A stretch of DNA of 64,000 nucleotides from Thermodesulfobacteriota bacterium (lineage in GTDB: Bacteria > Desulfobacterota > UBA8473). Numbering within the stretch: position 1 is the first letter of the stretch; every line of letters starts with the position of its first letter. The notes beneath the pieces were generated by a model that saw nothing but the letters and a program-made list of their open reading frames with translations, searched no databases and was not told the origin of the DNA. Shown in pieces: positions 42,816-56,428 of the stretch. The position numbers and the translations under genes were made by a program. The stretch lies in the NCBI GenBank assembly GCA_040757775.1, contig JBFLWQ010000010.1, forward strand, positions 1 through 64,000, given 5' to 3'.

Positions 42816-43448
42816 TTATTTTCGACATTTGGGAGTTACGGTTAGCTTGTCTGAAGGAGTAACAATCCCTCCAGACATTATTAATTTAAAGGCATCTTCC
42901 ACAGTCATATCCAGGTTTATAACATCTTTCTCTGGAACCAGAAGATATAATCCAGTAGTGGGGTTTGGTGTGGTAGGAACGAACACATTAACAACCCTCT
43001 TTTCAGTTTTATCCTGGACCTCCCCTTCGGTAACACCAGTTAAGAAGCCCATAATCCACATGTCCTTCATGGGAGCCTCAACCAATACAACTCGTTTAAA
43101 ACCCTTCGAATCCTGGGCAAATATGGCTTCGACCAGTTGCTTGATGGCAAGATATATATTTCTAACAAAGGGAACTCTCGATACTGCCCATTCCCATAGG
43201 TAGACCAACTTTTTCCCCAAGAGGTTCTGGGTAAGGATCCCCACGAGGATTGTGAAAACCGCTGTTGCAATCAGCCCCAGCCCTGGGATATGAAAGGGTA
43301 GGTAAGTATCAGGATGGAACTTTAATGGTAGGTAGTTAAGAACCCTGTCCATAATACCAATAAGGATATCCAGGATGTAAATTGTTAAACCAGCAGGTAT
43401 AATTACTAATAAACCCGTTATAAAATAATTTTTTATCCGCGTTTTCAT
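42816..43448 (-). CDS. DUF502 family membrane protein
   Basis: A 210-residue protein with two N-terminal membrane segments (YFITGLLVIIPAGLTIYILDILIG, LIATAVFTILVGILTQNLLG) and a cytoplasmic or periplasmic C-terminal domain with the family box VPTTPNPTTGLYLLVPEKDVINLDMTVEDAFKLIMSGGIV. The function of the family is unknown in bacteria; plant members are ER membrane proteins. It heads the minus-strand run toward miaB and is preceded by repeat copy C. Confidence 0.85.
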   Translation of the reverse strand: MKTRIKNYFITGLLVIIPAGLTIYILDILIGIMDRVLNYLPLKFHPDTYLPFHIPGLGLIATAVFTILVGILTQNLLGKKLVYLWEWAVSRVPFVRNIYLAIKQLVEAIFAQDSKGFKRVVLVEAPMKDMWIMGFLTGVTEGEVQDKTEKRVVNVFVPTTPNPTTGLYLLVPEKDVINLDMTVEDAFKLIMSGGIVTPSDKLTVTPKCRK

Positions 43449-43718: not shown

Positions 43719-44099
43719 TTAAAGTGACTGGAGATATACTGATGATTTTTTCTCTATTTTTCTATTATTTGCATCAACATAGATAAGCTTAGGTTTGTGG
43801 TTTATCGCCTCTTTTTCCTCATAGTGCGCATAATTAGCAATTATTATTAGGTCACCAATACTGACCTTATGGGCAGCGGCCCCATTAAGACAAATAGTAC
43901 CAGAGTTAGCTTCCCCTTTAATGGCATACGTTTCAAACCTTTCACCATTGGAGATATTATAGATGTGAACCGATTCGTAGGGTATTATGCCTGCATCTTC
44001 CATCAGGAGCTCATCAATGGTAATACTTCCTTCATAATCCAGATTAGCATCTGTAACCCTTACCCGGTGTATTTTGGATTTCAGCATGATTCTCTGCAC
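43719..44099 (-). CDS. panD: Aspartate 1-decarboxylase
   Basis: Makes beta-alanine for pantothenate. The self-cleavage site is YEGSITID, where Gly-Ser is split to leave a pyruvoyl group. [25 protein letters not shown] is the family's core. I place the start at the GTG at 44099, ten bases after GGAGG: the product then begins (M)[17 protein letters not shown], as PanD proteins do, with 126 residues. A frame reaching back to 44177 would overlap the end of panC. Third gene of the panBCD operon. Confidence 0.93.
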
Positions 44100-44127
44100 G
44101 TCACTTCTTCCTCCTTCACAAAATTTG

Positions 44128-44979
44128 TCATCTTCTTCTTTCAAAAGTACAATTATCAATAAGTCTTGTTTTGCCAACCTTCACTGCCATTGCCAGCACT
44201 GCGTCTCTATCAATCTCTTTAATGTACTCCAGTGTTTGAGAGTCACATATATTAACATAATCGATGTCCGTTAGACTTTCTGATTCAATTCTTTTCTCAA
44301 CCTCCCGAAGAATACTTTCGGACCTTCTTTCACCTGATTTGAATAACTCCTTCGCCTCAGACATTGCTTGATTTAAGCTTAGTGCAGCTTTGCGCTCTTC
44401 TGGGGTCAGGTAAGTATTTCTGGAACTCATTGCCAGACCGTCCTTTTCCCGGACAGTAGGGATTCCAATGATCTCTATATCAAAATTAAGGTCTTTAACC
44501 ATCTGCCTGATAGTAACTAACTGCTGAAAATCCTTCTCTCCAAAAATGGCAATATGCGGCTTAACAATATTGAATAACTTTGCGACTACCGTTGTTACAC
44601 CTCTGAAATGGGTAGGTCTGGAAGCACCGCACAGGTTCCTGGTTACATATTCTACATTTACATAGGTCTGATAGGTTTTGGGATACATCTCGGAAGCAGT
44701 AGGGGCAAAGATAATATCAACGCCAACTCCTTCTGCCAATTTCTTATCTTTTTCTAAATCTCTGGGATATTTTTCAAGGTCTTCTCCTACTCCAAATTGG
44801 GTAGGATTAACAAATATACTGATTATTGAGATATCAGCCCTTCTCCCTCCCTCCTCAATTAGCTTGAGATGGCCATCGTGGAGAAAACCCATGGTTGGAA
44901 CCAGAGCAATTATCTTATTCTTCAGACGGGAGCCCTCTGAAAACTCCTGCATCTCTTTGATACTACTTACCATCTTCAT
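44128..44979 (-). CDS. panC: Pantothenate synthetase
   Basis: A 283-residue ATP-dependent ligase of pantoate and beta-alanine. The nucleotidyltransferase motif is [14 protein letters not shown]; also present are [20 protein letters not shown], the central [17 protein letters not shown] and the KMSKS-like [19 protein letters not shown]. Complete and normal in length. It is 39 bases downstream of panB and 28 bases upstream of the panD start. Confidence 0.96.
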
Positions 44980-45018: not shown

Positions 45019-45819
45019 TCACTTAAAGCTATGCTCGTCATTGGGAAAGGCTTTGTTCTTTACCTCCGAGATATACTCTTTAACTGCCTTTGAGATTACC
45101 TCTTCCAAATTCACATATTTCTTTACAAACTTCGGTCGAAATTCACCAGACAGCCCTAATAAATCGTTGATCACCAAGACTTGACCATCACATTTTATGC
45201 CCGCTCCAATGCCTATGGTTGGAATTTTCAGCCTTTTGGTAATCTCTTCACCAAGTTGACTGGGGATCACCTCCAGGACAACGGAAAATGCCCCTGCCCT
45301 CTCAACTGCCAGGGCATCTGCCAGGAGTTTTTCTCTCTGTTTATCTTCTTTTCCTTGAACCCGATAGCCTCCCATTCTATGAACTGACTGGGGTGTTAAA
45401 CCAATATGTGCCATTACAGGTATGTCTATATCTGTAATAGCCTTGATGGTGTCCTCCATATTAGCCCCACCCTCAAGTTTTACAGCCTCAGCCCCACTCT
45501 CTTTTATCATCCTGCCCGCATTCCTCTTGGCATCCTCTATACTGGTCTGGTAAGACATAAACGGCATGTCTATGACAACGAGCGCATTTTTACAAGCCCT
45601 TGCAACTGCCTTGGTGTGGTGAATCATATCTCCGATAGATACCGGCAGGGTATTTGCCTGCCCCAGGACAACGTTGCCAACTGAGTCGCCAACCAATAAG
45701 ATATCCACTCCACAGGCATCGAGAATCCTGGCAGTAGGGTAATCATAAGCAGTAAGCATCGTTATCTTTTCCCCTTCATCTTTCATCCTTTGTAAGTCTA
45801 AGATCGTTATCTTTCCCAT
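45019..45819 (-). CDS. panB: 3-methyl-2-oxobutanoate hydroxymethyltransferase
   Basis: A 266-residue TIM-barrel enzyme that makes ketopantoate from 2-oxoisovalerate and methylene-tetrahydrofolate. Family motifs: [96 protein letters not shown]. First gene of panBCD, behind a structured leader with a terminator 20 bases before the start. RBS GGGGG is close to the ATG. Confidence 0.96.
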
Positions 45820-45839
45820 CTATACCCCCTAAGTTAAAA

Positions 45840-45874
45840 CAAAAAAGCCTTCTGGACTGAGTCCAGAAGGCTTT
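45840..45874 (-). terminator. Leader terminator (attenuator) ahead of panB
   Basis: On the minus strand AAAGCCTTCTGGAC and GTCCAGAAGGCTTT form a perfect 14-base stem around a three-base loop, followed by TTTTTT and more T's. It lies between the promoter and panB with no gene before it, so it can only stop transcription of the pan operon itself. Part of the stem (CTCAGTCCA) can pair instead with an upstream leader segment. Confidence 0.85.
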
Positions 45875-45879
45875 CTATC

Positions 45880-46012
45880 AATGGGCTAACGAATAGACCT
45901 AGGGGGAATTCCCCTGATCAACTATCCCATTTATCGACCCTATCGAAGTTCCTTCCGTCTCAGTCCAAATATATGGATCCAAGCGGGATAACAAATTGTT
46001 AAATCTTTTTAG
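45880..46012 (-). ncRNA. Structured pan operon leader, candidate riboswitch/pan-motif RNA
   Basis: From the promoter to the terminator the leader has three visible elements. (1) TGGACTGAG at 45960-45968 is complementary to CTCAGTCCA in the terminator loop side, and the following GGAAGG can pair with CCTTCT, which makes an antiterminator. (2) AATGGG (45926-45931) pairs with CCCATT (45880-45885), enclosing ATAG/CTAT and GGGG-AATT-CCCC. (3) The terminator follows directly. A conserved hairpin RNA called the pan motif has been reported ahead of panBCD in several phyla; whether this is a member was not tested. The ligand is unknown. Confidence 0.6.
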
Positions 46013-46019
46013 AAGGATA

Positions 46020-46048
46020 TTTTTAGCATATTAAACTAGTTGTGTCAA
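46020..46048 (-). promoter_or_regulatory. Sigma70 promoter of the panBCD operon
   Basis: On the minus strand TTGACA, 17 bases, then TAAAAA(T). The start near 46012 gives a leader of about 190 bases before panB. The same TTGACA-N17-TAAAAA arrangement precedes the B12 riboswitch at 56429. Confidence 0.7.
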
Positions 46049-46144: not shown

Positions 46145-46366
46145 ACTAAATAATTCACCCTGAAAAACGAAAAATTTCTTTTGAAGCGAACATGAGCAGG
46201 ATTTTTGGGGTACCCATCTTGACGAAGCGGAAGATAAGCATTTTCAGGTGGTTGATCCGCCAAAGGCGGAGAGTTCCTGAAAATGCCTGAAGCGAGTCAT
46301 ATATGGGTCAAAAATACTGCACCAGAGAGCGGAAAAGGGAATTTTTCAGGATGAACTAAATAATTC
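46145..46366. repeat. Nested-palindrome repeat, copy B, with direct-repeat flanks
   Basis: An element with terminal pair TTCACCCTGAAAAA (46154-46167) / TTTTTCAGGATGAA (46342-46355) and nested arms ATTTTTG..ACCCAT against ATGGGTCAAAAAT, GCATTTTCAGG against CCTGAAAATGC (11 bases perfect) and CCGCC-AAA-GGCGG. The 12-base word ACTAAATAATTC stands at both outer edges in direct orientation (46145-46156 and 46355-46366). It lies between the pan promoter and the ferredoxin gene. The remaining parts of this 629-base gap hold the pan leader and a plain AT-rich stretch at 46050-46144. Confidence 0.78.
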
Positions 46367-53029: not shown

Positions 53030-53256
53030 TCAAATAAGTCTCCTGGCTTACGGTTATGCCTAATCCCCATACCTTCCCGGCAGTTTTAAAACCACCAGTG
53101 GTTCAAAACAGTTAAAAGTTCAATGTTGCAGGTCAAAAGTATTTTGCTTTTTTATCCTTTTACTTTTAACTTTTCACTGTTGACTTTTAACTGTCTTTAT
53201 TGAGTTTCGTTCCGTCTACAGTTGCGGGGCAGCGTCGGCTTTTGACCGCCTTCCTT
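53030..53256 (-). ncRNA. Cobalamin riboswitch ahead of btuB, overlapping the btuD end
   Basis: On the minus strand the conserved blocks appear in order: GGAAGGCGGTCAAAAGCCG, GCTGCCCCGCAACTGTAGAC, GGAACGAAACTC, ACCACTGG, CTGCCGGGAAGG and AAGCCAGGAGAC (B12 box, usually AGTCAGGAGAC). The 5' part overlaps the last 40 bases of btuD: the codons AAPQL-stop are the riboswitch core. A variable arm (53098-53200) is expanded with CAGTTAAAAGT words in mirror orientation. Downstream TTATTTGA-CAGA-TCAAATAA and a short TCCC/GGGGA pair precede the RBS, with no T-tract, so control is probably at translation. Confidence 0.88.
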
Positions 53257-56110: not shown

Positions 56111-56168
56111 CTGCACCCAGCTTACTTCACCCCCCTTTCCTGGAAGAAGAGGCAAGTCCTATTTTATA

Positions 56169-56402
56169 GGCAGGTCTTCTGACTCTCAGATCTCCCTACT
56201 CCCCACACCTTCCCGGCAGTTTTAAAACTACCAGTGGTTTTAAAACAGTTCAAAATTGGAAGTTAAAAGTCTTTTGATTCTTTAACCTTTAACTGTTCAC
56301 TGTTCAACCTTGACTGTCTTTGTGGGTTTCGTCACTGATCACAGCGGCGGGACCGTCCCCGTTTTTTGGGGTTCCCTATTAAACCCTCTAAAGAGGGTAC
56401 CT
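56169..56402 (-). ncRNA. Cobalamin riboswitch ahead of btuFCD
   Basis: Blocks on the minus strand: GGTACCCTC (5' end), AGGGAACCCC, GTCCCGCCGCTGTGATC, GTGACGAAACCC, ACCACTGG, CTGCCGGGAAGG and GAGTCAGAAGACCTGCC (B12 box). The variable arm at 56234-56325 is expanded with AACAGTGAACAGTTAAAG words and a matching CTTTTAACTT strand, as in the second riboswitch at 53030. A terminator follows at 56078-56110, so the switch acts on transcription. The remaining gap to 56663 holds two outward promoters. Confidence 0.92.
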
Positions 56403-56428
56403 ATATAATGTATCTATTTATTTGTTAT

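Follow-up and report, generated by a model that had tools for sequence, protein, structure and literature searches.

The window, a stretch of 64,000 nucleotides, carries on its minus strand the genes panB (45019..45819; ketopantoate hydroxymethyltransferase; TIGR00222, 365 bits), panC (44128..44979; pantoate--beta-alanine ligase; TIGR00018, 353 bits) and panD (43719..44177; aspartate 1-decarboxylase; TIGR00223, 148 bits), the last one overlapping the end of panC. A gene for a DUF502 protein lies 3' of panD (42816-43448, minus strand), and a similar gene follows panD in the congener L167 (5072-5776). The panB-panC-panD operon is preceded by a leader of about 193 nt on the same strand, extending from a putative transcription start near 46012 to the ATG of panB at 45819. 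The sigma-70-like promoter is formed by TTGACA (46048-46043) and AAAAAT (46024-46019) separated by 18 nt, with 10 of 12 consensus matches, and comparison of leaders identified the same TTGACA in the congeners L002, L003, L007 and L008. A 17-nt inverted repeat (46151-46167 / 46342-46358, 88%, arms 174 nt apart) is located between this promoter and a divergent LysR gene. Two cobalamin riboswitch matches were also identified on the minus strand of the window, at 56152-56419 (76.4 bits) and at 53036-53256 (42.2 bits), the latter covering only model positions 45-169 with a long insert.

The leader carries the pan RNA (45950..45987, minus strand), recognised both by Rfam RF01749 and by a single-hairpin model (R1), and comprises a hairpin (45987-45955) of the form CCGCUUGG-A-UCC/GGA-CUGAG-A-CGG with two bulged A and a GGAAGG tail. 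The 3' strand of the hairpin plus the tail constitute the antiterminator strand, UGGACUGAG-AC-GGAAGG (45951..45967, minus strand). Its partner, identified like it by duplex energy and step-wise folding, is the 5' arm and loop of the terminator, CCUUCU-GGA-CUCAGUCCA (45853..45870, minus strand). Folding and leader comparison placed a spacer hairpin, AAUGGG ... CCCAUU (45880..45931, minus strand; arms 45931-45926 and 45885-45880), between the two strands, and the terminator search identified an intrinsic terminator of 16 pairs with a loop of 3 followed by a U run (45842..45876, minus strand). A promoter, a leader of about 190 bases and a strong terminator before panB had been described in a first-pass annotation of this DNA, and all of them are present. 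The same annotation had included the central AATGGG/CCCATT hairpin in the architecture; the hairpin is real but was rejected as a part of the conserved motif, its sequence and length differing between genera, with another hairpin in L008 and none where the spacer is about 20 nt. The central hairpin is a lineage-specific spacer.

In a cmscan against all Rfam families the leader matched RF01749 "pan" at 46038-45951 with 37.0 bits, the cut-off being 36.2, which bears out, by the covariance search proposed with the published model, the earlier guess of a pan motif. The low score reflects the two hairpins expected by the Rfam model. The first of them was rejected in the window, where it falls on the promoter, and therefore only the second hairpin is real; sequence and step-wise folding gave no second pan hairpin 5' of it, the space being taken by the promoter and about 25 nt. 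The tandem arrangement stated for most members of RF01749 is absent from this leader, and the genes found downstream, panB-panC-panD, are those of the family context. Model R1, a covariance model built from relatives, scored the window at 47.3 bits (E 9.9e-8), the window sequence being among its building set. The pan stem in the alignment of relatives has 11 pairs, 99.1% paired and 5 of them with two-sided changes, and A12 and A24 (alignment A1) are invariant in 34 loci including the window. The window leader is a member of a known orphan RNA family, in single-hairpin form.

Across the phylum, RF01749 matched 45 of 395 genomes (E <= 0.001) and the single-hairpin model 139 of 395 (E <= 0.01), the ratio being approximate as the thresholds differ. 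Among 60 new single-hairpin places checked, which leave out the weakest matches, panB, panC or panD was downstream in 56, so most of the new places are real; a terminator of -8 kcal/mol or better was present at 52 of the 60. One RF01749 match, L016, is a false positive inside a panB gene and was excluded, leaving 44 genuine loci, all of them before pan genes (panB-panC or panC-panD). A promoter with at least 9 of 12 matches ends no more than 13 nt from the hairpin in 21 of these 44 loci (3.9 expected), leaving therefore no room for a first hairpin, although about a dozen other loci (e.g. L005, L006, L025) present by eye an upstream hairpin-like element. The usual form of pan in this lineage is a lone hairpin immediately 3' of the promoter, unlike the tandem pair of Rfam. 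A degenerate-pattern scan of genome contigs was too loose as a pan finder, Rfam confirming among the loci checked only L050, from Desulfuromonadaceae; it also recovered L100, a deltaproteobacterial locus recognised by eye and without an RF01749 match above cut-off.

Some genomes, in which panB is separate from panC-panD, have a pan attenuator near each of them: L266/L272 (G365), L271/L286 (G270), L164/L293 (G184) and L276/L300 (G385). Other genes were identified between the attenuator and panB, namely a ThiS/MoaD-like gene in congeners (L167 2484-2762) and an aldehyde ferredoxin oxidoreductase (AOR) gene in a sister genus (L008/L169; L169 1236-3227, minus strand). Both are absent from this interval in the window and, given their position inside it elsewhere, appear to be under pan control.

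The pairing between leader and terminator in the window is exact, as the first-pass annotation had claimed: TGGACTGAG (45967-45959) and GGAAGG (45956-45951), from the 3' strand and tail of the pan hairpin, are complementary to CCTTCT (45870-45865) and CTCAGTCCA (45861-45853), in the 5' arm and loop of the terminator. The duplex reaches -19.1 kcal/mol against a shuffle mean of -6.9, a value attained by none of 200 shuffles. As a control, 105 terminators from the sequence examined here were compared, and only the window's own terminator, that of L168 (the pan leader of a congener) and that of L100 (a pan-like locus with the same layout) reach the same energy. The whole leader folds at z = -4.6 relative to dinucleotide shuffles. 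In step-wise folding of the nascent chain the pan hairpin alone forms up to the terminator, and the antiterminator appears at lengths 150-162, with the pan hairpin and terminator before and after; these are minimum free energy folds and not kinetics, and invasion of the pan hairpin is limited to the time of about 12 nt of synthesis. The folds are thus mutually exclusive and, with panBCD downstream, the riboswitch-like terminator/antiterminator arrangement proposed earlier for pantothenate synthesis stands as an architecture.

At each of the 44 genuine RF01749 loci a terminator follows the pan hairpin at 9-87 nt; in 43 of them it reaches -10 kcal/mol or better within 100 nt (0.4 expected from shuffles). 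The mean duplex energy of the pan strand with its own terminator is -15.3 kcal/mol against -9.8 for dinucleotide shuffles, with 42 of 44 loci below their own shuffle mean, and an antiterminator state of at least 6 pairs was identified by step-wise folding in 39 of 44. Over all loci, a few lack the antiterminator: L014, whose pan 3' strand does not pair with the terminator, and L273 and L289, both before panC, where a terminator was not found. The terminator helix is 100% paired across relatives and 6 of its 8 pairs present two-sided changes. Counted in a fixed register the antiterminator is 91.1% paired against 89.3% when shuffled (5/500), with two-sided changes in 2 pairs, a modest covariation because most loci share the consensus; for this reason a register-free permutation was used, in which terminators are swapped between loci, keeping composition and terminator character. 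The observed mean was matched in about 4 per 100,000 permutations for 34 non-redundant loci (p about 4e-5), in none of 20,000 for 86 loci from the Rfam and single-hairpin searches, and in none of 100,000 with one locus per family (38 families; z about -5, from -4.3 to -6.4 in 40 random draws), the last version removing relatedness up to the level of family and retaining kinship above it. Each pan 3' strand finds a better partner in the terminator of its own locus than in the terminators of the rest. The covariation expected among relatives by the first-pass annotation was therefore found, strongly in the pan hairpin and the terminator and, for the antiterminator pairing, between loci.

Linked changes in all strands were identified in several divergent loci: L018 has UUCG.../...CGAAAGG (UUCG/CGAA) and a terminator with CCUUUCGU; L020 has UGG.../...CCAGAA (UGG/CCA) and a terminator with UUCUGGUC; and L004 has CUG/CAG and a terminator with CCUUCUGU. 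In L161 GGACGG is matched by CCGUCC. A different register is used in L012, where GACGGC pairs with GCCGUU deeper in the loop; this locus and, by eye, L281 and L285 of the same family carry GCCGUUCGGUC or similar in the terminator loop, and the switch logic is kept in the three of them despite the shift.

Related attenuators appear to occur in Bacillales and Chloroflexota. A pan RNA is also present in the B. subtilis control genome. The 30 Bacillales loci have a second hairpin upstream, a tail GACAGAGG and a terminator with CCUUCUGUC or similar, while in the 12 Chloroflexota loci the pairing is shifted to GACCGAGACGG with CCUUCUCGG-type arms. Pairing with the own terminator is better than the shuffle mean in 27 of 30 and 12 of 12 loci, respectively. 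Step-wise folding gave an antiterminator state of at least 6 pairs in 8 of the 12 Chloroflexota and 21 of the 24 Bacillales leaders scored, several long Bacillales leaders (e.g. L178, L194) falling outside the parse of the terminator finder. The swap test was not significant within Bacillales (z -1.2) or Chloroflexota (z -1.7) alone, so the pairing is present in these groups and its covariation there is not independently supported. Bacillales leaders (L170-L199) often present CCUCU shortly 5' of an AGGAGG ribosome binding site, possibly a second, translational layer. In Chloroflexota one pan leader lies before a DUF2520/Rossmann protein with a weak ketopantoate-reductase match (L200 1656-2513), itself before panD-panB, and another before a peptidase S58 family protein (L203 1635-2603); both are possible new genes of the pantothenate pathway.

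We propose, with a probability of about 0.85, that the window leader attenuates transcription and so places pantothenate synthesis under feedback control, working through antiterminator invasion of the pan hairpin. Comparison of sequences establishes the pan membership, the operon, the terminator, the exclusive folds and the co-variation across families of the pan 3' strand with its own terminator. It further indicates that across dozens of families the 3' half of the pan hairpin can itself block the downstream terminator, and would thereby make an on/off switch. RNA polymerase would make the pan hairpin first. When the effector, either a pathway product or a protein reporting on the pathway, is scarce, the GGAAGG tail would act as a toehold for the newly made 5' arm of the terminator, CCUUCU, and the pairing would then enter the pan 3' strand, where the three pairs beneath the second bulged A would open before any others and, in the window leader, the rest of the stem would follow. 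The antiterminator so formed would prevent the terminator and panBCD would be transcribed. With the effector plentiful, the pan hairpin would be held shut, the terminator would form and transcription would stop. A role as antiterminator toehold would explain the conserved tail, which the Rfam structure leaves unpaired.

We infer that the switch works in the OFF direction, in what order its steps follow, and that an effector exists and what kind it is. Since antitermination uses the pan 3' strand and its GGAAGG tail, it is the conserved fold that permits termination, hence the OFF direction. The most strongly conserved residues lie in the pan hairpin, and when this hairpin is formed the terminator is free to fold; recognition of pan, by whatever molecule, would therefore most likely promote termination and so act as feedback repression. 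In many leaders no more of the stem than its three basal pairs, those beneath the second bulged A, is displaced in step-wise folding, and binding at this bulge may therefore be what gates the switch.

It is very improbable that the terminator serves for constitutive control or for an upstream transcript and that its complementarity to the pan strand is incidental, arising from common descent or from duplication of a GGAAGG-type sequence. The consensus CCUUCUG is common to many loci and inflates complementarity without independent events; however, both strands change together in the divergent loci, the permutation result persists when each family is reduced to a single locus, no pairing occurs with unrelated terminators, and other phyla have related attenuators in other registers. 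We give as little weight to control at translation, through the ribosome binding site: the CCUCU seen by eye close to AGGAGG in some Bacillales leaders would fit it, but in the window the alternative folds lead up to a terminator with a U tract, roughly 20 nt 5' of panB, and leave the AGGGGG site out.

Two further readings share the attenuator and differ in what the hairpin binds. The chances seem about even that the ligand is a protein, either autoregulatory or a dedicated regulator, and not a metabolite. A protein-binding motif was suggested by Weinberg et al. (PMC2864571) and, at about 33 nt, the hairpin would be a small aptamer; on the other side, the motif is in this lineage usually single with the promoter directly 5', so that binding need not be dimeric. 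That the hairpin is a riboswitch aptamer, with pantothenate, 4'-phosphopantetheine, CoA or a precursor as ligand, is a reasonable but more tentative reading. The expression platform is of riboswitch type with exclusive folds, the downstream genes are strictly pathway-specific, the residues around both bulged A are very conserved, and CoA, listed among the ligands without a riboswitch, has been named as conspicuously missing (PMC9971707); against these stand the very simple fold and a motif known since 2010 for which the literature found reports no ligand. It seems doubtful that the single hairpin alone, at some 33 nt, forms a complete aptamer for pantothenate, CoA or a precursor; if true, these leaders would be among the smallest natural riboswitches and would supply the missing class for the CoA pathway.

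Attenuation through invasion of the pan hairpin resembles systems of both kinds. In the FMN and SAM-I OFF riboswitches the 3' strand of the domain is also the antiterminator strand, and the ligand-held fold lets the terminator form. In PyrR and ribosomal protein leaders a small conserved hairpin precedes the attenuator, and pan is likewise a small conserved hairpin ahead of an attenuator, in a biosynthetic operon. Compared with transcription-terminating OFF riboswitches the pan domain is far smaller and may be protein-dependent. The purine yxjA-type OFF riboswitch, as summarised in PMC9756952, shares with pan a conserved domain whose 3' strand is the antiterminator strand and a ligand-held fold that frees the terminator. 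The pan motif itself was defined in 2010 by comparative genomics, mostly as tandem copies (PMC2864571), a stem with two highly conserved bulged A in the leaders of panB, panC or panD operons, as in the window; the difference is the one hairpin found here against the tandem pair modelled by Rfam. The main text of that paper describes no explicit attenuator in which the pan 3' strand takes part, and later papers only annotate the motif (PMC5670726, PMC4342826, PMC4634765). Neither mechanism nor ligand is stated in the main texts of the openly readable literature found, which does not establish priority.

The mechanism thus appears well supported by comparative evidence, in a known family and with a single-hairpin form that is new. 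The orphan pan motif receives a concrete mechanism with testable strands, and many families manage with a single hairpin. Of the phylum genomes that the single-hairpin model finds, roughly two thirds escape the tandem model of Rfam. For the question of metabolite versus protein, the simplest construct is a minimal leader of this type, in which the promoter adjoins the lone hairpin and the spacer is short.
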